64,000 bases of DNA from Gammaproteobacteria bacterium (GTDB lineage Bacteria; Pseudomonadota; Gammaproteobacteria; Steroidobacterales; Foliamicaceae): assembly GCA_011523505.1 (NCBI GenBank), contig WTGP01000026.1:1-64000 (forward strand), written 5' to 3'. The notes beneath the pieces are model-generated. The model had not been told where the DNA came from and ran no database searches. It saw only the letters and a program-made list of their open reading frames with translations. This document shows positions 9,687 to 28,580 of the stretch, in pieces (positions within the stretch are counted from its first letter, which is position 1; the number at the start of each line of letters is the position of its first letter). The position numbers and the translations under genes were made by a program.

Positions 9687-9693
9687 CGGCGCG

Positions 9694-10038
9694 CTAAAGA
9701 AGCTCCAGCACGCGTTCGGGAGGCCTGCCGACGACGGCCCTTCCATTCGTGATGAATACGGGGCGTTCGATAAGAATGGGGTTATCGGCCATGGCCCGAA
9801 TGCGGTCGTCGTCGGAAATATCGGCGCCCTGGAGTCCGAGCTCCCGGTACCGGGCTTCACCGCGGCGCATGAGTTCAAGCGGCGTCATGTCCAGTTGGCC
9901 CAGCAGTTCGCGCAGCGATGCTTCGTCCGGCGGGGTTTCGAGATAGCGCACCACTTCAAGGTCAATTTCGCGCTCCTGCAGAAGCGCCAGGGCGGCGCGT
10001 GACTTGGAGCAACGTGGGTTGTGGTAGAGAACGGCCAT
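9694..10038 (-). CDS. arsC: ArsC/Spx-family arsenate reductase-like protein
   Basis: A 114-residue thioredoxin-fold protein. It has the family active-site region YHNPRCSKSR with the single catalytic Cys and a following Arg, and later RRGEARYRELG and RPVFITNGRAVVGRPPE, typical of glutaredoxin-dependent arsenate reductases and their YfgD-like relatives. It is the last gene of the minus-strand export cluster, 13 bases after the permease, so it is probably co-transcribed. No other arsenic gene is nearby. A YfgD-type role not involving arsenate is equally possible; the family call is firm but the reaction is not. Confidence 0.85.
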   Translation of the reverse strand: MAVLYHNPRCSKSRAALALLQEREIDLEVVRYLETPPDEASLRELLGQLDMTPLELMRRGEARYRELGLQGADISDDDRIRAMADNPILIERPVFITNGRAVVGRPPERVLELL

Positions 10039-10051
10039 GGGAGTACTGGAG

Positions 10052-11245: not shown

Positions 11246-12105
11246 GTGTGTTGCTGCCTGATGGTTTCCGGCGCTGGGCCGGGTCGGATGACCACCTCGG
11301 TGATGACCCCATTGACGAGACGCGCGTTGCGCGTGCACTGCCGCGCCACGCTCCGGTCGTGCGTGATGACCACCACCGCGATGCCCTCGCCGTTGAGTTG
11401 GGCGAACAGCCGCATGATTTCCTCGCCGGTCTCCGGGTCAAGGCTGCCTGTCGGCTCGTCCGCCAGTACGACGGCGGGCGAACCGACCAGGGCGCGTGCA
11501 ATGGCCACCCGCTGTTGCTGCCCGCCGGACAACTGATCGGGACGGTGTTCCGCGCGTTCCGCCATGCCGACCTTGCCGAGCATGCTCTTTGCGCGCGCCC
11601 TGGCCTCCGGTCCGTCGATACCGCGGTAGGTTAGCGGCAGCGCCACGTTCTCCCAGGCGGTAAGGCGGGGAAGCAGGCGGAAGGACTGGAACACGAAGCC
11701 GATCGTCCGGTTGCGGATGTCGGAGAGTTCGTCGTCGCTCATCGCCGACACGCCGCGTCCGCCGACTGAGCAGGATCCGCTCGTGGGGCGGTCGAGCAAG
11801 CCCATGATATTCATCAGCGTGGACTTCCCCGATCCCGAGGCGCCCGTGATCGAGACCAGTTCGCCGGCGCGGATGTCAAGATCGACCCCCCTGAGCACCT
11901 CCGTTGCAACCGGCCCGACGGTGTATCGTTTCTTCACGCCCGCAAGTCCGATCAGCGTCCCTTCCCGCTGCGCGAGCGCGCCTCCAGGACGCCGGGCCGG
12001 TGCAGGACGGCCCGCTTTCGACGGGATTGCGGGTGGCCAGGGAAGCCTTCGGGCAAGCCCGGCCAGTTGCAAAGCTCTTTTGCGGCAGATCCCGAGAACG
12101 CCCAT
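11242..12105 (-). CDS. ABC transporter ATP-binding protein (MacB/LolD type)
   Basis: A 287-residue ATPase with Walker A GASGSGKST, Q-loop FVFQSFRLLP, signature LSGGQQQR, Walker B VVLADEPT and switch His in VVVITHD. Family membership in the MacB/LolD/FtsE group is clear. The ATG overlaps the stop of the upstream adaptor gene as TAATG, which supports this start even though it adds about 45 Arg/Pro-rich residues before the normal domain beginning near LIGLAGVKKRY; a downstream alternative start would give a more usual length. Here the ATPase and permease are separate polypeptides, unlike fused MacB. Confidence 0.92.
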   Translation of the reverse strand: MGVLGICRKRALQLAGLARRLPWPPAIPSKAGRPAPARRPGGALAQREGTLIGLAGVKKRYTVGPVATEVLRGVDLDIRAGELVSITGASGSGKSTLMNIMGLLDRPTSGSCSVGGRGVSAMSDDELSDIRNRTIGFVFQSFRLLPRLTAWENVALPLTYRGIDGPEARARAKSMLGKVGMAERAEHRPDQLSGGQQQRVAIARALVGSPAVVLADEPTGSLDPETGEEIMRLFAQLNGEGIAVVVITHDRSVARQCTRNARLVNGVITEVVIRPGPAPETIRQQHT

Positions 12106-13892
12106 TACGGCTGCGGGACCAGAATCCGGTCACCGGGCACAACACCCTCGAGGATCTCGACGGAGTCGATGGTCGATTCGCCTACAGAGACGGGTACCGG
12201 CCGGAAGTCGTCGCCCCGCGCCACGAGCACGGTCGGCTGGCCGTCGGCGAGGGTCACGGCGTCGAGCGGCACGAGTACGGCGCTGGCTTCGCGGCGAACC
12301 AGCACCTCCAGTACCGCGGACATGCCGATTCGAAGCGCCGCGCGCTGATCCGGCGTCAGGCTCTCGACAACAGCCGTCACCTCGAAGAAGGGGAGCGCGC
12401 GCGACTCGATTATCGCTTCGGAGGAAACCCGTTCGACGATGCCTCGCAGGACTGTGTCACGAAAGGCGTCGCCTCTGATCAGGACCTCGTTGCCCGGTTC
12501 GATCTCGACGACGTCCACCTCGTCCACCCGTCCCACCACCGACACGCCGTCGAGGTCGCCGATGATCAGAAGGCGCTCTCCCTGGGTGACCGAGTCGCCC
12601 GCGCCGAGCCGCTCGCGGCTCTCGCCGCCGCCCTCGGTTGGGGCGGGACGCATGACGACACCACCCACCGGCGCCCGCAGCATCGCGAGGCGAAGCGTCT
12701 CGCTGAGCTCGTCGAGTCGCGCCTTGGCATTCGCCAGCTCCAGTCTTGCCACACGGGCATCCGCCGTGCCCTTTTTCAGAACGCTGGCAAGATCCTGCTC
12801 GGCAGCCTCCAGATCGAGTCGCCGATTGTTGAAGCTGCGTTGCGCTGCGTCGTGCTCGGAACTGGGGATCACCCCCCTTCCGAGCAGAAAGGCTGTTTCC
12901 TCGACTTTCGTACTGCTGTCAGCCAGGTCGAGCCGTGCCTTGGCAACGCTGCGGCGCGCGCGCGAAACCTCGACGCCATCGGCCCAGTTGTCCGTCTCGT
13001 TGAACCGCTCAATTGCGCGGATGTGGCCCGCCTCAGCGTCGCGGTGCTCGATGCGCACTTCCGTCACGTCGAGCTCGAGCAGAAGCTGGCCCTGCTCCAC
13101 CCGGGCGCCGTACGGCACATGCACCACTGCCACCTTGCCCGTCATCGGACTGGTGACGTCCACCTCCCGGCGCGGCGCGAGCCGGCCCTCGACCAGCACG
13201 CTCTTGCTCAGCTCCCGCGGCTCGACCGTCATCACCACCGAGTCCCAGCCCGCCGTTTCCGATGCGCGTCCTGTGGCGTTCGGTCCGGGGGACCGAAAAT
13301 CCATTGCATAGAGACCAAGCACGGTCAGCAGCACCACCACGGCGCCGAGGCCTCCGACGCGCGCCAGACGCGCCTGCCGGTTGGCTTCCGCCAGAGTGCG
13401 GTTGCTTTCCTCGAGCCCCAGGTACGCCTCGCGCAGTTCCCGATGCTGCGCATCGACTTCACGGGCCAGCGCAACTTCCTTTTCGCGTAGTTCCCGGATC
13501 TCGGATATGTCGTCGAACACCACGGCAAGGCCCGCGTCGTCGTCTTCGCCGGCCACGATCCGCGACACGCTGACGGACAGGGAGCGGATGCCCGCATCGA
13601 AGGCGGCCTCGATGAGGCGGCGCCTGACCAGAGGCCCCTGGTACACGGAATCGAGGACGGCCTGTGTAAAGTCCTCCGCGCCTTCCATGGGCACAAAAAC
13701 CTCGGCAAAGGTGCGCCCGATCACGCTCTCCGGCGTAAGGCCCGTGATCCCGGCCGCCGCCGCGTTGAACGTGATGATCACGCCGTCGGGGCGCATGGAG
13801 ATGACTGCGCTGGCCAGGGTCTGGAGAATCGCCTCATGCAGCACGCCGGGAGCGCCCGCAATTGCCGCAGAGTCGGACCGCGCCGCGGCCAA
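12105..13892 (-). CDS. HlyD-family membrane fusion protein with N-terminal PAS domain
   Basis: A continuous 595-residue frame. Residues about 24-133 read as a PAS domain (the stretch from PDGVIITFN through GLTPESVIGR to the terminal FDDISEIRELRE). Residues 132-176 are a charged predicted coiled coil, and about 179-197 a single membrane segment. From about 210 to the end is an adaptor of the HlyD/MacA type, with VLVEGRLAPRREVDV, a central coiled-coil hairpin and an RVDEVDVVEIEPGN barrel segment. The start is taken as TTG at 13892, abutting the TolC stop with no clear ribosome site; a GTG about 17 codons later is an alternative. By topology the PAS domain is cytoplasmic and the adaptor periplasmic. 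The PAS ligand is unknown. Confidence 0.85.
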   Translation of the reverse strand: MAAARSDSAAIAGAPGVLHEAILQTLASAVISMRPDGVIITFNAAAAGITGLTPESVIGRTFAEVFVPMEGAEDFTQAVLDSVYQGPLVRRRLIEAAFDAGIRSLSVSVSRIVAGEDDDAGLAVVFDDISEIRELREKEVALAREVDAQHRELREAYLGLEESNRTLAEANRQARLARVGGLGAVVVLLTVLGLYAMDFRSPGPNATGRASETAGWDSVVMTVEPRELSKSVLVEGRLAPRREVDVTSPMTGKVAVVHVPYGARVEQGQLLLELDVTEVRIEHRDAEAGHIRAIERFNETDNWADGVEVSRARRSVAKARLDLADSSTKVEETAFLLGRGVIPSSEHDAAQRSFNNRRLDLEAAEQDLASVLKKGTADARVARLELANAKARLDELSETLRLAMLRAPVGGVVMRPAPTEGGGESRERLGAGDSVTQGERLLIIGDLDGVSVVGRVDEVDVVEIEPGNEVLIRGDAFRDTVLRGIVERVSSEAIIESRALPFFEVTAVVESLTPDQRAALRIGMSAVLEVLVRREASAVLVPLDAVTLADGQPTVLVARGDDFRPVPVSVGESTIDSVEILEGVVPGDRILVPQP

Positions 13893-15437
13893 TTACCGAA
13901 CGGTCTCCCGATACAGGCCGAAGCGCTCGCCCTCGGCGTTGTCATGCTCCACCCGGTCGATCTCGATGCCCCACCGTTCCAGGGTTGTGCCCAGGGTCCG
14001 GTCCAGCTCCGTGGCGGCGTTGAGCTTGCCCACGGCGGCATCGAGTTCTGCGTTTTCCGCAAGCACGAGGTCGTTTTCGAATGCGACGAGCTGGAAGTTC
14101 GTAGTGATGCCCAGGTTCAGTTTTTCGCGCTCGATTTCCGTCTTCTGCTGCGCGAGTTCACGCGCCCTGGAAGCCAGTTCGAGGCGGCGCTCCGCGAGCC
14201 CGATCTCCCGAACGGCGTTCTGGACGTCGATGGCGATGCGCTGGCGAAGATCGTCGAGCCGGTTCCGCGCGGCCTGCAGGCCGGCAACGGCGCGGCGGTG
14301 CTCGAGCCGCGCCCGCCCGGCGGCGGCCCGGCCGACCGGCACGTTCAGATCCAGTGATACGCGGTTGCGGGAGCGGTCCAGATCCCTGATGGCGCCGCCG
14401 AACCCGTCGTCCGACCCGGTGAAGGCGCGTCCCAGCGTGAGGGACAGATCCCACAACTGCGCATTTCTTGCCAAATGCGCCCGGGTTTCCGCGTTGCGGA
14501 CTTCCAACAGCCCGATTGCGTAGTCGGGCCGATTGGCCAGGGCGATCTCGAAGGCGGACTCGATGTTCAGCGGTTCGGTTGCGTCCGCTTCAGCGGCTAG
14601 CCCCTCCGCCTCTCCGAAGCGTGTTCTGGTCTCGAGGTCCAGCAGGTCAAGCAGATTCAGGCGCGCGGCATCCAGATTCCCCCGCGCGGCAACGACATCA
14701 AGTTCGCGGCGCGCGATGTCCGCCTCCGCCTGGATCACGTCGCGTTCCGCCATGCGTCCGGACTGGACCAGCAGCCGGTTCACCTCCAGCAGTCTGCGCG
14801 CCCGATCCAGGGAACGGACGGCGATCTCGTCCCGCTGTCCCGCCTGCACGTAGGCTCGATAGGCCCGGACCGCACGCGAAATGAGGTCGATCACCGCCGA
14901 CTCGAAAGCGAGTGCGTTGATCTCCTCGGTCACCCTCGCGGTTTGCAGCGCACCCCGGGCGACTCCGAATCCCGCACCGCGCAGGAGCGGCTGCGTAAAG
15001 GTCAGCTCGATCACGCTGCTGTGTGACGCGAGGGTCAGCGCGCCGATGCCGGCATCCGCAACACGCGATGAGAGCGCGAACTCCCCTCCGGTCGGGACCC
15101 GCAACCGGACGGACGAACCGATTCCCGAAGTTTCGTCTACAACTTCCCGCGCGTCCCGGTCGGCATAGGCGTCGAGGGTCAGTCTGGGTCGAAATTCGTC
15201 CTCGGCGACAAGGAGCGCGAACCGGTCCACCGAACGGTTGAGCCGCGCGTTCTCCAGCATTCTGCTGTTCCGCAACGTGAGGACTATGACCTCGCGCACG
15301 GTCAGATCAATTTCCGGCGCATCCGCGCCGGCGCCGTCCACCTCCGATTGCGCCGATGTAGCACTCGCCGCAATGATCGCGCAAACTACCAACAACGGAA
15401 GGCGCCGTCTGAGCCGGACGGGACCTTGTCCATCCAT
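13893..15437 (-). CDS. TolC-family outer-membrane efflux channel
   Basis: A 514-residue protein with a signal peptide (LPLLVVCAIIAASATSAQS) and the two repeated long helical regions of the TolC family, for example RAYRAYVQAGQRDEIAVRSL in the first half and LEHRRAVAGLQAARNRLDDL in the second. I chose the ATG at 15437, which has AGGA eight to nine bases upstream; a GTG at 15458 would add seven residues. It is the first gene of the exporter proper and directly abuts the PAS-adaptor gene, so the outer-membrane duct of the system is supplied in the same operon. Confidence 0.9.
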   Translation of the reverse strand: MDGQGPVRLRRRLPLLVVCAIIAASATSAQSEVDGAGADAPEIDLTVREVIVLTLRNSRMLENARLNRSVDRFALLVAEDEFRPRLTLDAYADRDAREVVDETSGIGSSVRLRVPTGGEFALSSRVADAGIGALTLASHSSVIELTFTQPLLRGAGFGVARGALQTARVTEEINALAFESAVIDLISRAVRAYRAYVQAGQRDEIAVRSLDRARRLLEVNRLLVQSGRMAERDVIQAEADIARRELDVVAARGNLDAARLNLLDLLDLETRTRFGEAEGLAAEADATEPLNIESAFEIALANRPDYAIGLLEVRNAETRAHLARNAQLWDLSLTLGRAFTGSDDGFGGAIRDLDRSRNRVSLDLNVPVGRAAAGRARLEHRRAVAGLQAARNRLDDLRQRIAIDVQNAVREIGLAERRLELASRARELAQQKTEIEREKLNLGITTNFQLVAFENDLVLAENAELDAAVGKLNAATELDRTLGTTLERWGIEIDRVEHDNAEGERFGLYRETVR

Positions 15438-15539
15438 GCCCGAATCCTGTCTAGACACCTCCGTTCAGGCTCATGTGCGTATTGAATTACGCTTCCTGGC
15501 CAGCCACGGCTCCCGTCATCGCTTGCCGGCGGCGCATGT

Positions 15540-15884
15540 TCAGCATTCTGTCTTAAGTTCACCGCTGCAATTGAGCAGCGTCACAACCCCTGCCGGCCCG
15601 CCGTGGTAGTCGCTGAAGTTGTCATGCTCCCCGCCTAGCGTCGTGGCGCAGTTGGCCTTGACGGCGCAGTTGTTCACGATGTCCGATCCGGGAGCGGTTT
15701 CGGCCTCCAGCACCGTGGTCGTGCAGCTTGCGCTTGCGGACGCTTGGGCCCACGCCGCCTCGCAATCGGCAGTTGTAATCTCGGTGTCGCTGGGCGGACC
15801 GATCTCCTGGGCGACGGTGGCGCCAAGCGCCAGAAGCAAGCCCGTTGCAACCGCAGCGAGTGTGTGCGATGAGTTACGCATCAT
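15540..15884 (-). CDS. Small secreted cysteine-rich protein, possible lectin-like fold
   Basis: A 114-residue protein with a clear signal peptide (LAAVATGLLLALGATVAQE). The mature part of about 85 residues has six cysteines, ends with NCSGELKTEC and contains two CxxxxxC-like blocks. The ATG pair at 15884 has a GGGGGA ribosome site. The layout (Cys near the start of a CxxAW block, a Ser/Thr-rich SCTTT, and a final NCxGxLxxxC) reminds me of small mannan-binding or cyanovirin-like bacterial proteins, but I cannot confirm this. It sits 102 bases upstream of the TolC gene on the same strand and could be cargo of the exporter, although its Sec-type signal argues for independent export. Confidence 0.7.
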   Translation of the reverse strand: MMRNSSHTLAAVATGLLLALGATVAQEIGPPSDTEITTADCEAAWAQASASASCTTTVLEAETAPGSDIVNNCAVKANCATTLGGEHDNFSDYHGGPAGVVTLLNCSGELKTEC

Positions 15885-16048
15885 TTTTCCCCCGATTCCA
15901 TTGATATCTTGATAGTACCACAGCACTCGCGTCTGTCTGTCGCTGGATCCCACGGCGGCTCCTGGTGCGGCGCTGGTGCAGCGCCTGGTGTTCGCGGTTC
16001 GTCTTCATGCGTTGTAGACTCTTGCATCAAGCGGAGGGCAGTGATTTC

Positions 16049-17095
16049 ATGCAGCACCTGGAATGGCGTGTAGGCGCTACCCATCGGCGGGCAGCCGCGG
16101 GCCGGACCGCGATGGTTCTGGTGCTTGCCGTCAGCGCCGGCTGGGGGGCGATCGCGCAAACCGAAAGCGCGCCGGCCGCCTACAAGACGGAATCGGGACC
16201 GTACGGCGTTCAGGTAATCGACAATCACGTCCTGCCGGCAGAAACCGGCCAGCGCAGCCTGCGTGCGCGCATCGCGTTTCCTCAAGGCGAGGGGACGTTT
16301 CCGCTGGTGGTGTTCTCGCACGGCTTCGCCTGCTATCGTGAAAACTATTCCGACTTGACGGACCACTGGGCCTCGCACGGCTACGTCGTGGTGCAGCCGG
16401 AACATCCGGACTGCCCCACATCCGAGCGCAGGCTCAGCGCCCAGGACGCCCGCAACCTGCTCTACATCCGGATTTCCGACGTGGAACGCGTGCTCGACAC
16501 GCTGTTCGCGCCGGGCGAGGACATACCGGGGCTGACCGGCAATATCGACTACAGCCGCAGGGTCATGGCGGGACATTCCTTCGGCGGAATGGTTACGCAG
16601 ATCATCTGGGGGCAGCCCATCAAGGATCCTGAGGGTGCCGAAGCCGTGAGCCACGCGCTGGACTTCGATGCGGCCATCGTCATGAGCGGTCCGGGGCCGA
16701 TGCCGCAGATGGCCGACGCGCCTTTCACCGAATTGCCGGGACCGTTGCTGGTAACGGGCGGCACCCGCGATACTCGCAACGCCGGCGATGGGGTCATCCA
16801 GCCCTGGGAGTGGCGCATGCTGTCTTACGAATCAAGCCCTCCGGGACACAAGTACTCGGTCGTTCTTGAGGAAGGGGACCACTACCTGGGCGGGCGCATC
16901 TGCCGCGAGGACCGCGGCGGGCCGGAAAACCGCGGCGGGGCACACGACATCGAGGGAGTGACGATCCTGGCCGGCGTCACCATCGCTTTCCTGGACGCAT
17001 GGCTGAACAATGACGCAGCCGCCAGGCGGTTCCTCGAGGAATTCGAGCAGCATGCGGGTATAACCGGCGGACGCGCCCGCTTCGCCCGCAGATAA
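16049..17095 (+). CDS. Secreted alpha/beta hydrolase (dienelactone hydrolase/chlorophyllase-like)
   Basis: A 348-residue enzyme with a long N-terminal region and signal peptide (MVLVLAVSAGWGAIAQ), then an alpha/beta hydrolase core. It has FPLVVFSHGFACYREN (oxyanion side), the nucleophile elbow GHSFGGM, and a late His in EGDHYLGGR. The ATG at 16049 has a GGAGGG ribosome site. It resembles the chlorophyllase, platelet-activating-factor acetylhydrolase and dienelactone hydrolase group, which cleave esters. It heads a plus-strand cluster of exported enzymes with the two amidohydrolases that follow (29-base gap), suggesting extracytoplasmic breakdown of one class of compound. Substrate unknown. 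Confidence 0.87.
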   Translation: MQHLEWRVGATHRRAAAGRTAMVLVLAVSAGWGAIAQTESAPAAYKTESGPYGVQVIDNHVLPAETGQRSLRARIAFPQGEGTFPLVVFSHGFACYRENYSDLTDHWASHGYVVVQPEHPDCPTSERRLSAQDARNLLYIRISDVERVLDTLFAPGEDIPGLTGNIDYSRRVMAGHSFGGMVTQIIWGQPIKDPEGAEAVSHALDFDAAIVMSGPGPMPQMADAPFTELPGPLLVTGGTRDTRNAGDGVIQPWEWRMLSYESSPPGHKYSVVLEEGDHYLGGRICREDRGGPENRGGAHDIEGVTILAGVTIAFLDAWLNNDAAARRFLEEFEQHAGITGGRARFARR

Positions 17096-17124: not shown

Positions 17125-18177
17125 ATGCCGTTTTCCAGACTCAAGTTAAGCAGTATTCTGATGGTCGCGCTGGCCGCGGCCGCCCATGCCGACGAATCCG
17201 CGCGGATGGGCGTCGAAATCAACGGCGAGAGGCTTGCCGTGATCGATATGCACCTGCATACGGGAACCTGGATGACGAAATCGCTGCGATTTCAGCAGCG
17301 CCTTCTGGGCCGCATTCCGGACGAACGGAAACCGGTCATGATTCGGAACATGGACCAAAGCCAGACGGGACAGGGCATTCTCGCCACGCTTGACGAGGTG
17401 GGCATCAGTGCCGGCGGAGTATTCGCCGTTTGGAGTCCGGCCACCACCGGCATCGCCACCAACGAATTCACGGCCAAACAGGTCGCCGTGAATCCCGACC
17501 GCCTGTTCGGCTTCGCGAGCTTTCGCGCCGACCGCTGGAACCGGAACGGGCCGGAGCAATTGCGGCAGATGGAAGAGGCGATCGAGAAGCACGGCATGGT
17601 CGGCATCAAGGTCGCGCATGCGCACCAGCAGTTTCGCCTGGACGACGAGCGATTCGATGGTGTTTACGAAATCGCGCAGCGGCAGGGCACGCCGATTTAC
17701 CTGCACACCGGCACCAGCCCCAACCCGGGCACACGCACGGAAGCGCCGTATTGCGACCCCGCCTACCTGGAGGGCGCCATACGCCGCTATCCGGACGTGG
17801 TCTTCATACTCGGCCACTCCGGCTACGACAGTTTCAATCGGGCGCTGACCTATACCGACTCGGCAATCGATCTGGCCCAGCGTTATTCGAACGTCTATCT
17901 GGAGCCCGGCGCGCTGGGCGCCAGGCGGGCCACCGGGGTGTTGCAGGATTACCTGGAGCGTATTCGCGCAGGCGGCGTCATCGACAAGTTGCTGTACGGG
18001 TCCGACGGCCCGCAGTTTGCAGGCTATGTCAAGTCACACCTCGACGCATTTGTCGCCGGCATGCAGGCCGCGGGGTACACGACCGACGAGATGCGCCTGA
18101 TCCTGGCCGACAACTTCACTCGCGTCTTCGGCATGCCGAAGATCGTCCTGGAAAATCCGCATCAAACAACGGAGTAA
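17125..18177 (+). CDS. Exported amidohydrolase, copy 1
   Basis: A 350-residue TIM-barrel metal-dependent hydrolase with a signal peptide (LSSILMVALAAAAHA). Metal-site elements visible are DMHLH (His 43 and 45), YLHTGTSPN, the His of ILGHSGYD and the Asp of LYGSDGPQ, a pattern of the amidohydrolase_2 (ACMSD/gamma-resorcylate decarboxylase-like) family. Members of that family hydrolyse or decarboxylate cyclic and aromatic acids; most are cytoplasmic, so the signal peptide here is notable. Only 4 bases separate it from a close paralogue. Confidence 0.88.
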   Translation: MPFSRLKLSSILMVALAAAAHADESARMGVEINGERLAVIDMHLHTGTWMTKSLRFQQRLLGRIPDERKPVMIRNMDQSQTGQGILATLDEVGISAGGVFAVWSPATTGIATNEFTAKQVAVNPDRLFGFASFRADRWNRNGPEQLRQMEEAIEKHGMVGIKVAHAHQQFRLDDERFDGVYEIAQRQGTPIYLHTGTSPNPGTRTEAPYCDPAYLEGAIRRYPDVVFILGHSGYDSFNRALTYTDSAIDLAQRYSNVYLEPGALGARRATGVLQDYLERIRAGGVIDKLLYGSDGPQFAGYVKSHLDAFVAGMQAAGYTTDEMRLILADNFTRVFGMPKIVLENPHQTTE

Positions 18178-18181
18178 CGAA

Positions 18182-19216
18182 ATGAAGTTTCTCAGACCGT
18201 GCATTCTGCTTGCTGCGCTGTCCGTCACCGGATTGGCCAGCGGGCAGGAGAACATGGGAGTTGCCGTCAACGGCGAAAGGCTTGCCGTGATCGACATGCA
18301 CCTGCATACCGGGACCTGGGCCGGGACGCCGCCCCGCTTCAGGAAACGCCTCACGGACCGCGTGCCGACGGGCTTCAAATGGACCATGGGGGTATTCATG
18401 AACAACCGCCTGGACGGCGAGAGCATTCTCGGCACGCTGGACGACGCCGGCATCAGCGCCGGAGCGGTGTTCGCGCTGTGGAGCCCGGCCACCACCGGCA
18501 TCGCCACCAACGACCACGTCGCCAAGCAGGTTGCGGTAAATCCCGACCGCCTGTTCGGTTTTGCGAGCCTAAGGGTCGACCACTGGAACCAGGACGGACC
18601 TGAGCAACTGCGGCAGATGGAAGAGGCGATCGAGAAGCACGGCATGGTGGGCATCAAGCTTGCGCATGGGCACCAGCAGGTCCGTCTGGACGACGAACGC
18701 CTGTACGGGGTTTACGAGATTGCGGCGCGGCAGGGTACTCCCATTTACCTGCACACGGGCACCAGCCCGAATCCGGGCACCCGCACCGAGCCGGCGTATT
18801 GCGATCCCGCCTACCTGGAGGACGCCATCCGACTCTATCCGGGTGCGATTTTCATACTCGGCCACTCCGGCTACGACAGTTTCAACCGGGCGCTGACGCA
18901 TACCGACGCGGCGATCGATCTCGCCCGGCGTTATCCGAACGTGTACCTGGAACCCGGCGCTCTGGGCGCCGAGCGTGCGGAACACGTGCTGCACGATTAC
19001 CTGGAGCGGATTCGGGCCGGTGGCGTCATAGAAAAGCTGATCTACGGATCCGACGGCCCGCAGCTTCCCGGCTACGTTCAGTCGCATCTCGACGCGTTCG
19101 TCGCGGGGATGCAGGAGGTCGGTTACACGACCGGCGAGATGCGCCTGATCCTGGCCGACAATTTCACGCGTGTCTTCGGCATGCCCAAGATCGTTCTGGA
19201 GGATCAGGAATCATGA
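18182..19216 (+). CDS. Exported amidohydrolase, copy 2 (tandem paralogue)
   Basis: A 344-residue paralogue of the preceding gene. It has the same signal peptide type (CILLAALSVTGLASGQ), the same DMHLHTGTW metal motif (His 40 and 42), YLHTGTSPNPGTRTE, ILGHSGYDSFNRALT and YGSDGPQ. Differences concentrate in residues just after the first metal motif (TWAGTPPRFRKRL versus TWMTKSLRFQQRL), which in this fold line the substrate pocket. It ends in an ATGA overlap with the small probable lipoprotein gene. A recent tandem duplication followed by pocket divergence is the simplest reading. Confidence 0.88.
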   Translation: MKFLRPCILLAALSVTGLASGQENMGVAVNGERLAVIDMHLHTGTWAGTPPRFRKRLTDRVPTGFKWTMGVFMNNRLDGESILGTLDDAGISAGAVFALWSPATTGIATNDHVAKQVAVNPDRLFGFASLRVDHWNQDGPEQLRQMEEAIEKHGMVGIKLAHGHQQVRLDDERLYGVYEIAARQGTPIYLHTGTSPNPGTRTEPAYCDPAYLEDAIRLYPGAIFILGHSGYDSFNRALTHTDAAIDLARRYPNVYLEPGALGAERAEHVLHDYLERIRAGGVIEKLIYGSDGPQLPGYVQSHLDAFVAGMQEVGYTTGEMRLILADNFTRVFGMPKIVLEDQES

Positions 19217-19720: not shown

Positions 19721-20599
19721 ATGAAGAACGTCCACATTTTCTGCCTGGCGCTCGCGTGCGCGCCTTTGGCAAACTTGGCGACGGCTCAGGAAGAGAGCGA
19801 TGCCGTCATCGAGGACATCGTCGTTACCGCGCAGAAGCGGGAACAGTCGTTGCAGGAAGTGCCGATCGCCATTACCAGCATCGACGGCGACGAACTGATC
19901 GGCAACGGTGCGGACAATCTGGCCGATCTGAGCGGAATAGCGCCGAACGTTTCGATCGCGGACCTGTTCGTTCCGAATGTCGCGCAATTCTCGATACGCG
20001 GAATCGCTTTCGGCGATCCGGACGCCAACGCCGAATCGAAGACGGGCGTCATGGTGGACGGAGTGCCGCGCACCCGAACGATGGGCCTGCTGACCAACGC
20101 GTTCGACGTCGAGCGGATCGAGGTTCTCCGCGGTCCGCAGGGCACGCTGTTCGGACGCAACAACCTGGCGGGTACGGTCCGGCTCGTCACCCGTCGCCCG
20201 GGAGAGGAATTCGGCGGTGATTTCAGGTTTGCGCTGGGCAACTACGACTTGCGGAAAGCCCATCTGGCGATCGATACGGGCGCGTTTGCCGGAGGGATGT
20301 TCAGGGCGCGCCTTTCGGGCGCGAGCGTGGACCGGGGCGGTTTCTACACCAACTCATTCAACGACAACGAACTCGGCAAGAGGGACTCAAGAGGCATCAG
20401 GGCAACCCTGGATGCGGATTTCGGGGCGCTGGACGCCACGCTGATTCTGGATTCCGAGCAACAGGACAGCGTTGGCGTTCCCCTCAATAACTTTGTGCTG
20501 GAGCCGGACGGCACGCGTCTCGACGGGGATCCCTACACCGTCCGCCATGATTATGACGGCTATGGCGAATCCGATGCTGCTCGAGGAGCGCCTTCTTGA
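19721..20599 (+). pseudogene. TonB-dependent receptor, truncated after the plug domain
   Basis: The frame begins as a normal receptor: signal peptide (IFCLALACAPLANLATAQ), TonB-box-like EDIVVTAQKREQS, plug motifs GVMVDGVPRTRT and IEVLRGPQGTLFGRNN, and the first barrel strands up to GYGESD at about 20575. It then ends within seven residues (AARGAPS and a stop). Only 292 of the usual 700-800 residues remain, so the barrel cannot form. Sequence immediately beyond reads on the other strand as an RND adaptor that is also cut short. The receptor is therefore almost certainly non-functional here, unless the junction is an assembly error. It follows the lipoprotein gene by 37 bases. Confidence 0.85.
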
Positions 20600-20966
20600 C
20601 CTTGAGGTCGATCTCGAAGTCGGTCGGGTCGATCGTCAGCAGGGTCTGGCCGGCGCGAAATGTCCCTCCGCCCCGCAACGCCTCGGAAACGGAAAGCACC
20701 CGCCCGGCAACCTGGGAACGCAGACCCACCTTGCCCTGGGCCCGCACTTCGCCGGTCAGGGCCACGGTAAGGGAATGCTGGCCCCTTGCCGGATGCGAAA
20801 CGACGACTTCGGGATCCTGCAACTGGGCTCGCGCGACGGAGGTCTGCGGCCCGCCCATGTCCGGCGCCCGGGCAAAATATATCGCTACCGCAAATACCGC
20901 CAGGACCAGGACGATCTGCGCAAGTCCCGCAAAACGCCGGCGCTCGCCCGTATTGTTGCTGTTCAT
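20484..20966 (-). pseudogene. RND efflux membrane fusion protein, 3'-truncated
   Basis: The start is normal: an ATG with a GGGGGAAAG ribosome site, a membrane anchor (AQIVLVLAVFAVAIYFA), then MFP sequence with VALTGEVRAQGKVGLRSQVAGRV, GTFRAGQTLLTIDPTDFEID and VKKALLEQ. After residue 130 similarity ends and the frame runs out as non-family residues to 160. The hairpin beyond its first residues, the second lipoyl half and the barrel domains (roughly 230 residues in a normal member) are missing. It lies 98 bases downstream of the RND pump gene on the same strand. The lost part presumably included its own partner pump, but that is inference. Confidence 0.82.
20570..20580. other. Junction joining two 3'-truncated convergent genes
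   Basis: Receptor-like sequence on the plus strand is recognisable up to about 20575. Adaptor-like sequence on the minus strand (VKKALLEQ) is recognisable down to about 20577. Nothing separates them, so both genes lost their 3' ends at essentially one point. This fits a deletion or an assembly join; I see no IS end, target duplication or long repeat at the site. Confidence 0.7.
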
Positions 20967-21064: not shown

Positions 21065-24000
21065 TTACGCGGCGAATGTTTGGTCCAGGATGCGGGCGGT
21101 TCCCAGGGCGGTTTCCGAAATCAGATCGCCCAGGTCATCAAAATGGCCGATGCCGCACATTTCCGCGATCGCGGCTTTCTGATCCTCGGAGGCGGAATCG
21201 GGATCGAAAGCGTCGCCGCAGGTCATCTGGAAATATCCTTCCAGGTTTTGCCAGAGCGTCCCGGCCTCGACCAGCCCGGAGGCCGCCCGGGCATCGATCA
21301 GGCCATGCCCGTCTGCGGCTTCGAAGGTGGGGATGAGGCCATGTACCAGCACCTCGGGAGTATGGCGGGCATTCGTGAGCTGCAGGAATTCGGCGGCCAG
21401 TTCCACTTCCGCAAGGCCGCCCGGACGGCGCCGTATCTCCCAGGCATCGCTGTCCTTGTGCTGTTGCGCCAGGCTCTTGCGGACCGCGACCATGTCGGCG
21501 ACGATCGCGCCCGCGTCGTGTGAGCCTGTCAGCACGGAACGCCGGAACGGCTCGAACCGGTCGCCGAGGTCGCCTTCCGCCTCGATGACGCGAGCGTGGA
21601 CCAGCATGCGCAGATCGTTGGAACTGGCGATTTCGTCGAAGTGCTGCCGGGTTGCCCCGAGTGTCGGGGCGAATGTTTCGCGCCCGCCGCTTTGCAGGGC
21701 GTAGGGGGGCACAGGCCTGAGCAGAATGCCTTCGGCGGAGAAATCACGAATCAGCCGCATGAAGAATTGCACGAATTGCGCATGCCAGGCAGTGGGGTTG
21801 AGTGTTGCAGTGCTCGATTTCCGGTCTTCACGGTCGCAGATGAACAGCAGTTCCAGGGGGCCACCGGTCACGAACTCGCGCCGGCCCGCGGGGCCCAGCG
21901 CCACCAGCGCTATGCGGCTGCCGGGAATTTCGCCGTGCTGCGAGGTGAATTCGGCCCTGGCCGCGGGCAACAGCGACGCCAGGCAGGTTTCCAGGATGTC
22001 GGTCAGGGGTGCGGCGGCTTCCACGGGCGGCATTGTCCCGCCGGCAATGTGGGCGCCGAGCTGGAAGGTTCGCTCTTCCGCCCAGGTTCGGGCTTCATTG
22101 ACGAGATCGTTGGCGTCGGGCGTCCTGGCGGCGACGGCGCCCAGCTGCGCGCGCATTTCGCCGATGTCGAACTCGCGCTGGTAGTACACCCGCACCAGGC
22201 CCTGGCGCGCGATCTTCTCCATCTCCGGATCCAGTTCGAGGTCTTCCGGCAGCTGGAGATCGGTGAATTCCTGCGCTCTCAGGCTTTCCTGCACGTAGGG
22301 ATAGCGCGCCATCCATTGGGACAGCCGCGGGGCGGCGCCGATTACGCCGGCCACAACCTTGTCCGTAACGCGCCGGGTTCCGCCGGAAATGTCCCGCAGG
22401 ACCAGCCACAGGGCCGGGACGAACAACAGCGCGGCGACCGAGGAAAATACGACGCCGAAGGCCAGCGAGGCAGCCATCGGCACGAGCGGCTGCGCCGGAA
22501 CGCTGTTGCTCAGCATCAGGGGCGCTACGCCGGCAAAAGTGGTGACTGTGGTAATCAGTATCGGACGAAAACGGGAAACGGCGGCCTTCAGCAGGGCGTC
22601 CTCCATGCCGTCGCCCGCGGCCCGAAATCGGTTGACGCCATGTATCAGGACGAGAGTCGAGTTCACGACCACGCCGGAGGCGGCCACGATCCCGAAGACC
22701 GAGGCCATCGAAAGACCCACGACGGGTCCGAACAATTTGAGAGTCACGTGCCCCCATACCGCGCCCACGAAAGCAAAAGGCAGCACCGCCATGATGATCA
22801 GCGGTTGCGAATAGGAACGCAGGGGCAGGGCCAGCAGCGCGAATATCGCAAACAGGGCCATGAGAAACAGCGGCCCGACCGTGGCGACCGTTTCCTGCTG
22901 CTCGCGGGCGCTTTCAACGGTGAAGGAAACGCCGTCGTAGCGGCGCAGGACCTGGCTCAGGAACCCGGCGTTCAGTTCGGCCATGACGGCTTCCGCGGAA
23001 GTGATCCGGGGATCCACTTCGGCCGAGACATCAACGGTGCGCGATCCGTTGGTGCGCTGGATCTCCGCCAATCCCCGCCCACTGCTCAATACGGCCACCG
23101 CCGAGAACGGCACCTCCCCGCCCTCCGGCGTCCGGATCCTCAGCGAGTAGAGTGAATCCAGCGAGCGCCTTTGCTCTTCGGGGTAACGCACCATCAGACG
23201 GACGTCGTCACGGCCACGTTGTATCCGCTGGGCCTCTTCGCCGTAGAAAGCCTGTCGCACCTGGCGGCCCAGGTCGGCGAGGGTTATCCCCAGGGCTTCA
23301 CCGGCCGGAGTAACCGAGAGTTCCAGCTCGGCCTTGCCCTCGCGCAGCGAATCGACGATACCGAATACGCCCGGGTACTGAAGCAACTCGCCACGAAATT
23401 CGTCGGCGATGCGTCTCAAGTCGCCGATGTTCTCGCTCGCGAACCGAATCCATATTTCCGGGTCTCTTTCTATCCTCTCCGTAATGAAGTTGAGTTGGTC
23501 CGAGGCGGCAACGGAACCGGCGATCTCGCGCCACATCCTGGCGACTTCCTCGGTTCGGATGTCGCGCTCCTCGCTCGGGTTCAGTTGCATCGTGACTTCG
23601 GCGAGGTGCGTGCCGGACGGCGCCGGGATGGCGCTGCCGGGCTGGGCCGTGGACGGGTGCCCTCCCATCGCCTCCAGAATGTGCAGCACCACCGGCTTGC
23701 CCTGTTCGTCGGCCAGTTGTTCCCTGAGGTCCCGGGCGGATTCCGCAAGTTGTTCAATGATCTCCAGCGTGGTCTCCTCGCTGACTCCCAGGGGCATCCG
23801 CAATCGGGCGGTGACCGTGTCTCCCTGTATCGGCGTGAAAAACGTGAACGGCAGGTGACCGCTGAGAACGATGCTGATCGAGACAATCAGGGCCGCCAGG
23901 GAAATGGCCAGCGTCAGGACGCGCTTCCGGTACGCGGCACGGGCCAGCTCGCGGAAACGTCCTTCGACAAGCGCCTCCAGCGCCGATTCGAACATGACCT

Positions 24001-25639
24001 GAACGCGCGCGAATCGGGCCCCCAGACGGCTGAGCGCACCGGTCACGTGGGCGGCGTAGACCAGAGATACGCCGCCGATTGCGACGCCGATCGCGGTGCG
24101 CAGGTCGGGCGTGACGGCAAACGCGCCAATCACCACGGCCGCCAGAACGGTCATCCCGAATTCGCCCAGCGGCATCCGGGTTCGGCGGTGTCCGAGATGC
24201 GCCGGCAGGACCATCTGGCACTCGATCAGGGAGAAGGCAAGACAGCAGATGACGGTGCCGGCAATCACGCTGAATATCTGCCCGATCCTGCCGACCGAGA
24301 ACAGAAGCGGCGTGAAGGCCGCAACGGTGGTCAGAACGCCGAACGTGACCGGAACCATGACCTGCTGCGTTCCCCGGATCGCGCCGGCGAGTTGACCGGC
24401 TCCCCGGCGGTGCGCGACGTAGGCGCTCTCTCCCACCACGACGGCGTCGTCCACCAGCATGCCGAGAGCGAGGATGAACCCGATCACCGAGATGGAGTCG
24501 ATCGAGAAGCCGAGCGAATACATGAGGAAAAGCGCGCCGAGAAAGGCGATGGGAATGCCCGCCGCCACCCATAGCGCCAGGTGGGGGCGGAGGAACAGGG
24601 CCAGCAGGAGCAACACCAGCAAGAGACCCTGTACACCGCTGTCCACGAGGGCCCCCAGGCGGCCGGTCACCAGTTTCGATTCATCCTGCCAGACCTGCAC
24701 CTGCACCCCTTCCGGATAACGGGAAGGCGACAGGGCAATAAAGTCCTTGACGGTCTCGGTAATCAGGCGAATGTCCTGCTCGCCCATTCTGCTGACCTGC
24801 ACCAGTGCGGCCGGCTTGCCGTTGAACGTGAGGCTCTGGCTGGTGTCTTCGAAGCCGTCCACGACCCGGGCCACATCTTTCACGAGGACCCGGGTGCCGT
24901 CGTTGCGGGTGGTGACCAGCAGGTTTTCGATTTCACGGCCCCGATAGGCCTGCCCGCTGGTCCGCAGCAGCACTTCGCCCTCGCGCGTTTTCACGGTGCC
25001 GCCCGGCAGGTCCAGCGAACGCATGCGCAGCGCGCTCGCGACGTCGTCGAACGTCAGGTTGTTGCGCGACAGCGACAGTTCGGAGATTTCAACGGAAATT
25101 TCGTACGGCCGCGCATTGGTGACTTCCGCATGCGTGACGCCGTCAAGCCTCAGGATGTCGTCGCGCACGCGACGCGCCATTTCCTTGAGCGCGCGTTCGT
25201 CGGCAGGGCCGGTAACGGCAATCTCCATGACCACGCTGGACGGCGTGACCAACTGAATAATCGGTTTTTCCGCCTCCTGCGGAAACGTGTCGATGGCGTT
25301 GATCTGCGCATCGACGTCGTCCAGCACCAGGAACCGGTCGGCGTCGTAGAAGAGCTCCACCACGACGTTGCAGCGACCCTCCATCGCGGTTGAGCGCACT
25401 TCCTTGATGCCGTTGATGCCCTCGATCTGCTCCTCGATCCGGGTGCAGATCCCGGACTCCACTTCCTCCGGGGCTGCGCCCAGGTAGGGGACGGTGACGG
25501 TAATGACGGGCAGGTCGAAGTCGGGATAGAGCTTGACCGGTATCTGGCCGAGCGACGCAAGACCGGCCAAAACGGCAAATCCCATCAGGAGGTTGGCCGC
25601 CACCCTGTTGGTGGCGAACCAGGCGATCATCGCCTTCAT
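21065..25639 (-). CDS. RND efflux permease fused to a GlnE-like nucleotidyltransferase domain
   Basis: One uninterrupted frame of 1524 residues. Residues 1 to about 1088 are an HAE1-type RND pump: N-terminal MIAWFATNRVAANLL, porter domains, the TM4 proton-relay motif ALGMLVDDAVVV, and a last membrane helix ending LFVPALWLVLRDI. Extra hydrophobic segments lie at about 505-545. Residues about 1089-1524 are soluble and match the order of a GlnE adenylyltransferase unit: LGPAGRREFVTGGPLELLF (1248-1266), RMLVHARVIEAEGDLGDRF, RRRPGGLAEVELAAEFLQL (1403-1421) and a helical C-terminal bundle. The usual SDLDLIF metal Asp pair reads GPLELLF, so catalysis is probably lost. Its ATG overlaps the adaptor stop (ATGA). 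The domain would be cytoplasmic. Confidence 0.9.
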   Translation of the reverse strand: MKAMIAWFATNRVAANLLMGFAVLAGLASLGQIPVKLYPDFDLPVITVTVPYLGAAPEEVESGICTRIEEQIEGINGIKEVRSTAMEGRCNVVVELFYDADRFLVLDDVDAQINAIDTFPQEAEKPIIQLVTPSSVVMEIAVTGPADERALKEMARRVRDDILRLDGVTHAEVTNARPYEISVEISELSLSRNNLTFDDVASALRMRSLDLPGGTVKTREGEVLLRTSGQAYRGREIENLLVTTRNDGTRVLVKDVARVVDGFEDTSQSLTFNGKPAALVQVSRMGEQDIRLITETVKDFIALSPSRYPEGVQVQVWQDESKLVTGRLGALVDSGVQGLLLVLLLLALFLRPHLALWVAAGIPIAFLGALFLMYSLGFSIDSISVIGFILALGMLVDDAVVVGESAYVAHRRGAGQLAGAIRGTQQVMVPVTFGVLTTVAAFTPLLFSVGRIGQIFSVIAGTVICCLAFSLIECQMVLPAHLGHRRTRMPLGEFGMTVLAAVVIGAFAVTPDLRTAIGVAIGGVSLVYAAHVTGALSRLGARFARVQVMFESALEALVEGRFRELARAAYRKRVLTLAISLAALIVSISIVLSGHLPFTFFTPIQGDTVTARLRMPLGVSEETTLEIIEQLAESARDLREQLADEQGKPVVLHILEAMGGHPSTAQPGSAIPAPSGTHLAEVTMQLNPSEERDIRTEEVARMWREIAGSVAASDQLNFITERIERDPEIWIRFASENIGDLRRIADEFRGELLQYPGVFGIVDSLREGKAELELSVTPAGEALGITLADLGRQVRQAFYGEEAQRIQRGRDDVRLMVRYPEEQRRSLDSLYSLRIRTPEGGEVPFSAVAVLSSGRGLAEIQRTNGSRTVDVSAEVDPRITSAEAVMAELNAGFLSQVLRRYDGVSFTVESAREQQETVATVGPLFLMALFAIFALLALPLRSYSQPLIIMAVLPFAFVGAVWGHVTLKLFGPVVGLSMASVFGIVAASGVVVNSTLVLIHGVNRFRAAGDGMEDALLKAAVSRFRPILITTVTTFAGVAPLMLSNSVPAQPLVPMAASLAFGVVFSSVAALLFVPALWLVLRDISGGTRRVTDKVVAGVIGAAPRLSQWMARYPYVQESLRAQEFTDLQLPEDLELDPEMEKIARQGLVRVYYQREFDIGEMRAQLGAVAARTPDANDLVNEARTWAEERTFQLGAHIAGGTMPPVEAAAPLTDILETCLASLLPAARAEFTSQHGEIPGSRIALVALGPAGRREFVTGGPLELLFICDREDRKSSTATLNPTAWHAQFVQFFMRLIRDFSAEGILLRPVPPYALQSGGRETFAPTLGATRQHFDEIASSNDLRMLVHARVIEAEGDLGDRFEPFRRSVLTGSHDAGAIVADMVAVRKSLAQQHKDSDAWEIRRRPGGLAEVELAAEFLQLTNARHTPEVLVHGLIPTFEAADGHGLIDARAASGLVEAGTLWQNLEGYFQMTCGDAFDPDSASEDQKAAIAEMCGIGHFDDLGDLISETALGTARILDQTFAA

Positions 25640-26820
25640 CCGGGCACAGCGGAATCGGCCGGGGCGGGCGTCGGGCGAACGCTCTGGCCCTCGACGGCGT
25701 CATCCAGGGCCGTTACGCAGATCTGCTCCCCGTCCGCTACATCGACCCGAACGTAGGCGATCTCGGCGTTCAGGAACACGACTTCGGCATCGCGGAAGGA
25801 AAGCCGATTGCCGTTGTCGACGACATAGATTCGGTTGCCCGTCTGCAGCGCCGCGCTGGGGACCATAATGACGTCTTCGACCGTGTTGCCGATGATGTCC
25901 GCCTCGACGAAGAGCCCGACCATCAGCGGCGGCGCTCCGTCTGCGGGTTCATACGGATCGGCCACCTGCGCTATTACGTTGACGACACGGCTCAAGGGAT
26001 CCAGTTCGCCTTCGGTCCGCACCACGTCGGCCTCCCATGCATAACTGCCGCCGGCGAATTCGGCGCGCAGTATCGCTTTGGTCTTTGCCGCGGCAGGCGA
26101 GTCGGTACGCGCGAGGGTAAAGGGCAGATAGGCGAGGTCCTGGTCCTTGACCGGCAGGCGCACCTCCGCGTAATCGGTGGAATAAAGGGTGGCGATGGAC
26201 TCGCCGCGCGATACGAACTGCCCGGTGTCCACGCGTTCGGAGCGCACCCGCCCGTCATACGGCGCGGTCACGCGGGTCCGCTCCAGGTCGCGTTCAGCCT
26301 GCGCCAGTGCCGCCGTGGCCTGACGCTGGCCCGCGCGGGAAAGATTGAGCTGGTTCAGCGCCTTGTCTAGATCGGCCTGGCTGACCGCCTGGGTGGCTGC
26401 CAGTTCTTCCGCGCGGTCGAAAGTGATTTCGGCGTTGGCGAGTTCGCTCTCGGCGGAAGCGAGCGCGGCCCGCGCCTGCTCCAGGGCGGCTTCGTAGTCG
26501 ATCCGCTCGATTTCGAGCAGCACGTCGCCCCGCGAGAAAAACCCGCCCGACACCATGGAAGGAGAAACGGCGACAATCCGACCCGCCACTTCGGCGACCA
26601 GATTGCTCTCGGTCTTGGGCACGACGGTTCCGTGCGCTCTGACGCTCAATTCCCCGGGGCCCTTGAGTGCCGGAATGGTCAGGACCGAGGGAGCGTCCGG
26701 CGGCCGCGCCTGGCGGTCCGGCCTGGGACCCGTGGCAATGATGGCGATTGCCAGCAGGAAGCCTCCCGCCACGATGAGTACGGGGCCGAGATAGCGCTTC
26801 AACAGGGCCAGGAAGCTCAT
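25636..26820 (-). CDS. RND efflux membrane fusion protein (periplasmic adaptor)
   Basis: A 394-residue adaptor with an N-terminal membrane anchor (YLGPVLIVAGGFLLAIAII), the first lipoyl half (VVPKTESNLVAEVAGRIVAV), a coiled-coil hairpin (ALEQARAALASAESELANAE), the second lipoyl half (VTAPYDGRVRSERVDTGQFV) and beta-barrel and membrane-proximal domains ending with PSAALQTGNRIYVV. It is complete, in contrast to the truncated adaptor downstream. Its stop overlaps the RND start and its start overlaps the permease stop, both as ATGA, so three genes are translated as a coupled set. It is the expected partner of the RND pump; an outer-membrane channel is not encoded next to them. Confidence 0.93.
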   Translation of the reverse strand: MSFLALLKRYLGPVLIVAGGFLLAIAIIATGPRPDRQARPPDAPSVLTIPALKGPGELSVRAHGTVVPKTESNLVAEVAGRIVAVSPSMVSGGFFSRGDVLLEIERIDYEAALEQARAALASAESELANAEITFDRAEELAATQAVSQADLDKALNQLNLSRAGQRQATAALAQAERDLERTRVTAPYDGRVRSERVDTGQFVSRGESIATLYSTDYAEVRLPVKDQDLAYLPFTLARTDSPAAAKTKAILRAEFAGGSYAWEADVVRTEGELDPLSRVVNVIAQVADPYEPADGAPPLMVGLFVEADIIGNTVEDVIMVPSAALQTGNRIYVVDNGNRLSFRDAEVVFLNAEIAYVRVDVADGEQICVTALDDAVEGQSVRPTPAPADSAVPG

Positions 26821-28580
26821 CCGGCTGCTCCCGCAACGGTTCTTGGCGTGTCCACACGCACGGTGACGATGTCGGTATCGTGGTATTGCTGGTGGTGGAC
26901 GGACGAAGCCAGGCCGCGCAGCAAGCGCAGCGAGACTTCATGTTCCGGCGCCTGGCTGGAGCTCTGTTCCACCAGCAGGGCCATCCGGTCCTCCACGTTG
27001 CCTTCGCCGGGCGCCGCGATGAGTTCCAGGACCGCGCCGTCGCCTTCCTTGTGCGCTACCAGCAACAGCCGTCGCTTTGCCTGGTTTTCGTCGTCCTGGT
27101 GGTCGAGCAGGGTCAGGAGGGTTTCCTCGCTGGCGGCCTGAAGCCGGCCGGCCATCGCGTCCGACCAGCCGCTGCGCTTTGTGAACGACTCCAGGAATTC
27201 CTGGATCCGGGGCAGGGCGGACACCGCGAACTCCGCCTCGAGACGTCGGCGGCGCGGCGCCGTGAGTTCGAGGAACAGGGTCATGAGCACAGCCGTGAGT
27301 CCACCGGCCGTCATGCCGTTCTCCATCATCCCGCCGGCAAATTCCGAGAAGAACTCCGGGAAGATGACGCCGGCCTGGAAACCGGTGCCGATCCAGAAGG
27401 ACACGCCGCAGATCAGGCCGTTGCGGGCGTTCATGCCGTCCTGGATCACCAGTTTTATCCCGACCATGAACAGCATCGCCATGAGCACGATGACGTAGGC
27501 CGCCACCACCGGTCCGGGTATGGCCAGGATCATGGCCAGCGCCTTGGGAAGAAACGCCACCGCCAGGAAGATCGCTCCCACGGCGATTCCCACCCTGCGC
27601 GCCCCGACGCCGGTCAGCTCGGTCACCGAGACGCTGGTCGAGTAGGTGGTGTTGGGCACCGTGCCGGCGAGGCCCGACAGCAGGTTGCCGACGCCGTCGG
27701 CCGCCACGGCGCCCTGGACCGCCCGGAAATCCGGCGCGCGCGGTTTGCGCCACGACACGCGTTGAATCGCGAGCCCGTCGCCGATGGTCTCGATGGCGCC
27801 CACCAGGGTGGCGAAGATGAAGGCCGGCAACAGGCTCCAGAAGACCGGGCCGAAGTCGAGGTTGAGCCCCGGCCAGTTACCGGCGGGAAGCCCGACCCAG
27901 CCGGCTTCCGCAACCAATTGCGTGTTGTAGAGGCCGTAGAAGCCCGCAAGAATCGAACCGGCCACGACGCCGATCAACGGCGCCCACAGGCGCAGCACGG
28001 CGTTTCCCCGCAGGGCTATGGCCACGATGATCAGCAGTGTCACGACCACGGTAAGCGGGGTGGCGAAGGACGGCGCGCCCTCGGGGAGGTCCTTGAGCAT
28101 GTCGAATGCGACCGGCATCACGGTCACCGCAATCAACATGATCACGGTGCCCGATACGGTCGGGGTCAGCACCCGGCGCAGCAACGAAAGCCGCCCGGAC
28201 AGCAGGAACTGGAACAGGGAGGCGATGATGACCAGCGTGCCCAGCATGGCCGGTCCGCCCTTGGAGATGGCGGCGATGCAGACCGCGATGAAAGTCGCCG
28301 AAGTGCCCATGACCAGCACGTAGCCCGATCCGAAGCGCCCCACCCGAACGGCCTGAAGGATGGTCGTGACGCCGCTGATGGCAACCGCGGCGAATACCGC
28401 CCAGGAGAGGTAGGATTCCGCGCCGCCCGCGGCCCGGATCACGATCGCGGGGGTCAGGACGATGCCGGCAATACAAAGCACCGCGAACTGCAGGCCAAGG
28501 CCGAAGGCGAGCGGCTTCGGCAGCTTTTCGTTCGGCTCGTAGCGAACGTTGGCGACGGAATCGGGCGTATCGGCCATCAT
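26817..28580 (-). CDS. NCS2 xanthine/uracil-type permease with C-terminal ATPase-like domain
   Basis: A 587-residue protein. Residues about 20-445 are a nucleobase:cation symporter-2 permease with many membrane helices, FAVLCIAGIVLTPAIVIRAA, the acidic motif AIETIGDGLAIQR and the loop GTVPNTTYSTSVSVTELTGV characteristic of the family. Residues about 451-587 are soluble: GRLQAASEETLLTLLD, RLLLVAHKEGDGAVLELIAA, EVSLRLLRGLASSVHHQQ and DTDIVTVRV. This order resembles a degenerate histidine-kinase-type or RsbW-like ATPase fold. Transport of xanthine, uracil or urate is family knowledge; the exact substrate is not visible. It is the first gene of the adaptor/RND operon. Confidence 0.9.
   Translation of the reverse strand: MMADTPDSVANVRYEPNEKLPKPLAFGLGLQFAVLCIAGIVLTPAIVIRAAGGAESYLSWAVFAAVAISGVTTILQAVRVGRFGSGYVLVMGTSATFIAVCIAAISKGGPAMLGTLVIIASLFQFLLSGRLSLLRRVLTPTVSGTVIMLIAVTVMPVAFDMLKDLPEGAPSFATPLTVVVTLLIIVAIALRGNAVLRLWAPLIGVVAGSILAGFYGLYNTQLVAEAGWVGLPAGNWPGLNLDFGPVFWSLLPAFIFATLVGAIETIGDGLAIQRVSWRKPRAPDFRAVQGAVAADGVGNLLSGLAGTVPNTTYSTSVSVTELTGVGARRVGIAVGAIFLAVAFLPKALAMILAIPGPVVAAYVIVLMAMLFMVGIKLVIQDGMNARNGLICGVSFWIGTGFQAGVIFPEFFSEFAGGMMENGMTAGGLTAVLMTLFLELTAPRRRRLEAEFAVSALPRIQEFLESFTKRSGWSDAMAGRLQAASEETLLTLLDHQDDENQAKRRLLLVAHKEGDGAVLELIAAPGEGNVEDRMALLVEQSSSQAPEHEVSLRLLRGLASSVHHQQYHDTDIVTVRVDTPRTVAGAAG

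Follow-up and report, generated by a model that had tools for sequence, protein, structure and literature searches.

The protein described here is an RND-type exporter that ends in a dead adenylyltransferase unit, the AT-C half of an alphaproteobacterial-type GlnE, and this tail has probably been repurposed as a cytoplasmic docking or allosteric (regulatory) domain. The window, by which we mean the whole 64,000-nucleotide stretch of gammaproteobacterial DNA that was analyzed, encodes it on the minus strand at 21065-25639 as a single uninterrupted ATG frame of 1,524 codons. The earlier note on this DNA had claimed a complete HAE1-type RND permease whose frame continues as a GlnE-like tail, and the single frame, together with matches to ACR_tran and GlnE, agrees. 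The pump moiety and its flanking genes are as follows.

22376..25639, minus strand: HAE1-type RND permease moiety, residues 1-1088, with MexB/AcrB/MdtB relatives and tailless orthologues
24446..24451, minus strand: proton-relay pair Asp397-Asp398 in TM4, kept in tailed and tailless pumps
24041..24172, minus strand: inserted hydrophobic hairpin in the TM6-TM7 loop, residues about 490-533 (~42 aa), from alignment and hydropathy
25636..26820, minus strand: membrane fusion protein (HlyD-type adaptor), overlapping the pump start (HlyD_3, 4.3e-13)
20484..20966, minus strand: truncated second adaptor, downstream of the pump, from comparison with locus L005

The ACR_tran profile covers the permease moiety over its full length in two stretches (493 bits, E=2.1e-147), and its nearest solved relatives are MexB, AcrB, and MdtB. 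RND pumps are the chief multidrug exporters in Gram-negative bacteria; the Asp-Asp pair in TM4 is the proton relay of their permeases, and their C termini lie on the cytoplasmic side. HAE1 members usually, though not by strict definition, have 12 TM helices and a short cytoplasmic C terminus. The TM4 pair and a neighboring membrane fusion protein, which mark a HAE1 pump, are both present in the window, and the gene product is, by sequence, an intact RND drug/solute exporter. It resembles AcrB, MexB, and MdtB in the whole of its permease, in the TM4 aspartates, and in the adjoining HlyD-type adaptor, but it has two additions, namely, a hydrophobic hairpin between TM6 and TM7, seen in the hydropathy profile, and a cytoplasmic tail of 436 residues.

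Adaptor homologues adjoin most tailed pumps, and the only other conserved neighbor, at several loci, was a second, tailless RND permease; other clusters in the flanks were mostly antisense reading frames. In the window, the truncated second adaptor meets a truncated TonB receptor (19721-20966). In L005 (about 9410-16180), this adaptor is followed by another RND permease, also the second of its locus and tailless, and then by a TonB receptor of full length. By comparison, some 3 kb appear to be missing from the window genome, unless the contig is misjoined here. Directly upstream of the adaptor-pump pair is a gene for a xanthine/uracil-type permease of 587 aa (26817-28580, minus strand). Its C-terminal stretch gives a weak match to HATPase_c_2 (E=6e-4 when searched alone, below cutoff), which weakly suggests a second neighboring transporter whose tail looks regulatory. 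At 17125-19213 on the plus strand is a tandem pair of amidohydrolase-like genes that share about 75% identity and are found in tandem in L006 too.

The tail keeps the GlnE order of parts: helices, a nucleotidyltransferase (NT) core, and a C-terminal helical domain. Its features are these.

21068..22375, minus strand: degenerate GlnE AT-C tail, residues 1089-1524
22184..22264, minus strand: 27-residue tail-specific insert TDLQLPEDLELDPEMEKIARQGLVRVY, residues 1126-1152, missing from canonical AT-Cs and the most conserved segment of 50 tails
21836..21901, minus strand: nucleotidyltransferase loop ALGPAGRREFVTGGPLELLFIC, with GPLEL in place of canonical SDLDL (aligned motif table)
21710..21712, minus strand: position of the third catalytic Asp (canonical DxRLRP), Val in the window tail (aligned motif table)
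21377..21433, minus strand: GlnE/GlnD C-terminal helical motif RRRPGGLAEVELAAEFLQL, residues 1403-1421, whose Gly-Gly and helix are kept in canonical AT-C and full-length tails

With the whole protein as the query, Pfam GlnE (PF03710) matches residues 1157-1362 at 34.5 bits against a gathering score of 24; the tail alone reaches 38.7 bits (cutoff 24, E=9.5e-10). The earlier note had staked its reading on such a profile-level match and had expected GlnD_UR_UTase beside it; GlnE came out over its gathering score, while GlnD_UR_UTase stayed below cutoff (18.7 versus 21). PRK14108, the NCBIfam model of alphaproteobacterial-type GlnE, finds the tail with an E value of 5.1e-41; the match spans positions 621-977 of the model's 986, which is the C-terminal AT unit. 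The score of 140 bits is far under the full-length equivalog cutoff of 724, as expected for half a protein. A sequence search of the PDB with the tail gave E. coli GlnE 3k7d as the sole significant match (9.8e-10). The top structural matches of a tail model built from seven sequences, of modest confidence (pLDDT 56), were the two halves of E. coli GlnE (Foldseek 2e-8 and 8e-7), with Z scores of 18.2 for 1v4a and 17.4 for 3k7d and 10.6 for the next match; DrrA and other nucleotidyltransferases, which have a core in common with the tail, followed. Because of this modest confidence, tail-pump contacts are not readable from the model, and a single-sequence model of TM10-12 plus the tail (pLDDT 40) was discarded. 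The adenylyltransferase fold proposed for the tail is thus recovered in profiles, sequence, and structure, and the motifs that the earlier note had picked out (the GRRE loop, the WE..AL..AR helix, and the GG(L) motif) match canonical AT-C column for column. Whereas GlnE, the glutamine synthetase adenylyltransferase/removase that responds to PII and glutamine, joins two units, the AT-N removase and the AT-C transferase, in one soluble protein, the window protein has only one, fused to an RND permease. Overall, the tail is like the AT-C half of a PRK14108-type GlnE in sequence, helix order, NT core, and C-terminal helical domain, with 3k7d and 1v4a as top structural matches, but differs from GlnE in its single AT unit, its fusion to a membrane protein, the loss of the catalytic triad, and the gain of a 27-aa insert.

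The positions of the Asp/Asp/Asp triad read P/E/V in the window tail, and in the aligned motifs the triad is found in 26/26 canonical AT-Cs and 0/50 tails. Both metal aspartates had been called missing from the outset (SDLDL to GGPLELLF); the alignment concurs and shows the third acidic residue to be lost as well. To judge from these positions, the tail is catalytically dead, as all three acidic residues for the metal-dependent AMP chemistry of GlnE are gone. That it still acts as an enzyme or nucleotide binder through other residues might be argued from the GRRE part of the loop, which most RND tails retain; we consider this extremely unlikely, as not only the three acidic metal ligands but also, in most tails, the canonical-site Lys and Glu have been replaced.

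An assembly or frameshift artefact was dropped as an explanation because the in-frame fusion recurs in many independent MAGs and paralogues and because dN/dS is below 1. The idea that the tail is translated by itself, from a start within the gene, was also rejected: where the tail begins, three homologues had no start codon accompanied by a Shine-Dalgarno-like site. A search for further RND proteins of this architecture, as the earlier note had suggested, found it to be recurrent in many MAGs, and the 50 aligned tails comprise 29 on RND pumps and 21 on AlkB-type oxygenases. In-frame RND-tail fusions were present in 4 further genomes of the window's genus and in six Gammaproteobacteria MAGs, two of which are apparently the same genomes as two of these congeners. 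Among relatives of the genome containing L010, a single genome can have as many as three paralogues of the tailed pump. In the search of relatives, tails were found in 15 of 98 genomes. The sample names of the tail-bearing MAGs point, we presume, to marine sponges.

The alphaproteobacterial flavor first attributed to the tail holds up in the PRK14108 match, in tail-model scores, and in trees, and from these the tail is judged to descend from the AT-C half of an alphaproteobacterial-type GlnE. A model of the tail scores 149 to 209 bits on AT-C of that type, 70 to 105 bits on gammaproteobacterial AT-C, and 27 to 84 bits on AT-N. The best plasmid matches of the window tail were Tistrella (6e-33) and Shinella and Sinorhizobium (about 1e-20), compared with 1e-7 for Klebsiella and Acinetobacter. 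We infer the alphaproteobacterial identity of the top-scoring AT-C genomes from these named matches and from the PRK14108 type, a model that exceeded its threshold in just one of 14 control genomes and that also responds in Caulobacter, E. coli, and Corynebacterium. Tree building grouped all tails into one clade (support 100/100) on the side of alphaproteobacterial-type AT-C and apart from host GlnE, with RND tails and AlkB tails as sister clades; a second tree repeats the single tail clade (100/99). Derivation from the host's own GlnE is ruled out by both trees. The window genome (G000) has a separate, intact GlnE elsewhere.

One genome with tailed proteins, G988, also encodes a full-length alphaproteobacterial-type GlnE (L193:3230-6193; 726 bits versus a cutoff of 724). 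Its AT-C reads GSPLELLLVA, with Pro/Glu/Val substituted just as in the window tail, but unlike that tail it belongs to a full-length protein with an intact AT-N motif and no membrane-protein fusion. We predict a deadenylylation-only enzyme. In the tree, it adjoins the tail clade (94/95) on a long branch, and it may be an intermediate; given the long branch, and with misbinning of the contig possible, it is suggestive only.

The 27-aa insert was present in every tail region examined, where it lies within EFTDL...IARxGLVRVYY and includes near-invariant positions. Across the 50 tails, mean conservation was 0.73 for residues 1124-1156 versus 0.49 for the NT core. The least constrained part of the tail is its C-terminal third. 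Tail dN/dS was mostly 0.19 to 0.31 across pairs, compared with 0.05 to 0.13 for the pump in closer pairs, and in close pairs the tail value was several-fold above that of the pump. The tail is thus under purifying selection, though less constrained than the pump. It is possible to see it instead as a neutral remnant, a piece of GlnE joined by accident and kept because a C-terminal cytoplasmic extension is harmless, and the dead active site, the higher dN/dS of the tail, and the truncation of AlkB tails in one genus fit such an account. We hold it to be very unlikely, as tail dN/dS is still only about 0.2 to 0.3, insert positions are near invariant, full-length tails have been retained in paralogues differing at about half their residues, and the tail co-occurs with the hairpin.

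Every tailed pump that covers the TM6-TM7 region (23 rows, several of them near identical) has the same 53-residue stretch there without gaps. Tailless orthologues from another family of the same order (G027 and G040), 43% identical over the whole pump and ending at residue 1085 of the window protein, have neither hairpin nor tail, and the tailless RND paralogues adjoining tailed pumps are without the hairpin as well. One distant CusA-like permease was left out of this count because its alignment is unreliable there. Among the pumps sampled here, hairpin and tail thus occur together. The hairpin is not a general requirement of the tail, since AlkB, by family membership, has none.

The second head on which the tail is found is an AlkB-type oxygenase with an FA_desaturase domain. 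Oxygenases of this type that carry the tail occur in 8 of the 9 genomes of the window's genus, G000 included, although one of the 8 copies has an in-frame stop. Full-length AlkB tails came from three sources: a different family of the order, a different order of the class, and relatives of the genome containing L010. In the window's genus they stop after about 300 residues, with the C-terminal third lost, whereas pump tails there are not shortened; part of the module is therefore dispensable in that genus. The AlkB-tail fusions (L002, L016, L187, and others) belong to the same tail clade as the window protein and carry the same insert, but differ in their FA_desaturase head and, for the G000 copy, in lying within a TOMM/NHLP peptide cluster. 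That cluster (L148; G000:C9:14000-33000) contains a SagD-family component, a leader-binding protein, an NHLP export ABC transporter, a halogenase-like gene, and an HAE3/MMPL-type transporter, a gene content that recalls sponge srp clusters. A 459-aa protein at L150:170-1546 has an N-terminal NHLP leader and is far longer than usual precursors; its counterpart in G000 (L148:10502-11680) weakly matches squalene cyclase.

Among the loci examined, no fusion partner other than RND and AlkB-type proteins was found, every tailed protein having one of these two heads. Within the same genomes, one module is thus carried by two families of membrane proteins and no others, and the EFTDL insert is common to both tail types. 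This could mean that the tail is a scaffold without any sensing role, tying pump and oxygenase to a common cytosolic protein or to each other, for example so that an oxidized product is exported. We regard this as improbable: the AlkB-tail and RND-tail genes are on different contigs in G000, there are up to three tailed pumps per genome, and only the AlkB tails are shortened in the window's genus.

Our preferred reading remains a pseudo-enzyme tail with a docking or allosteric role. Docking is favored over the sensing of nucleotides at the former active site because of the AlkB fusions, the extra hairpin, and the peak of conservation in an insert that GlnE does not have. Three copies of the tail would hang beneath the RND trimer, and their insert-bearing helical part would bind a cytosolic partner, in common with the AlkB fusion. 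Hairpin and tail may then relay the state of that partner to the transmembrane proton-relay domain, the hairpin being specific to the pump. PII could be the first candidate for the partner, as a lead only. It is a reasonable one because GlnE is a target of PII (PMC9249168), because PII-family genes were present in all 7 of the 7 genomes checked, and because PII-regulated transporters are trimers; fused regulatory domains are a common theme among regulated transporters (review, PMC10710835). No canonical GlnE was found in G940-G943 (the genomes of L007-L010), though PII-family genes are present there; these MAGs may be incomplete. Some PII matches in G940-G943 fall within open frames of about 390 to 410 codons. 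The cognate PII gene of the window genome is at G000:C9:5467-5784.

A stronger form of this idea, akin to the gating of efflux by glutamine, PII, or nucleotide signals that the earlier note had suggested, is that PII or glutamine binds the tail in the manner known from GlnE, and that the trimeric pump is thereby directly opened or closed as nitrogen status changes. The GlnE ancestry of the tail, the PII genes in every genome checked, and the trimeric state of RND pumps, of PII, and of PII's transporter targets (PMC10710835) all fit. We nevertheless find it unlikely, as no substrate connects the pump to nitrogen and as the best-conserved part of the tail is absent from GlnE, so that the ancestral GlnE binding surface is not the obvious one. 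A still broader version is likewise doubtful: a dead module from alphaproteobacterial-type GlnE, captured after inactivation of AT-C, would now be a portable domain tying both RND trimers and AlkB-type oxygenases to a PII/glutamine signal in a group of marine gammaproteobacteria.

The control proposed here, by a cytoplasmic domain or trimeric partner, has parallels in MetNI C2, ModABC, AmtB-GlnK, and SbtA-SbtB (PMC10710835). None of these uses a GlnE fold, however, and the RND regulators named in that review, AcrZ and WatS1 among them, are small proteins. In the open-licence literature, we found no description of a GlnE-RND fusion, a GlnE-AlkB fusion, or an RND protein with such cytoplasmic domains, in keeping with the earlier note's impression that the architecture is undescribed. 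RND pumps are not known to carry large cytoplasmic regulatory domains.

Taken together, a domain of known ancestry sits on a known type of pump in a place where it is not known to have been described, and the recurrence of this tail suggests a new way of wiring pumps to an intracellular signal. The GlnE with a dead AT-C may offer a view of an enzyme half becoming a docking domain, and because pump and oxygenase have the module in common, the question of what it binds can be approached from two independent sides. With a lineage-specific, conserved pseudo-enzyme on the inner face of the pump and a hairpin to match, posttranslational control of RND efflux becomes directly testable.
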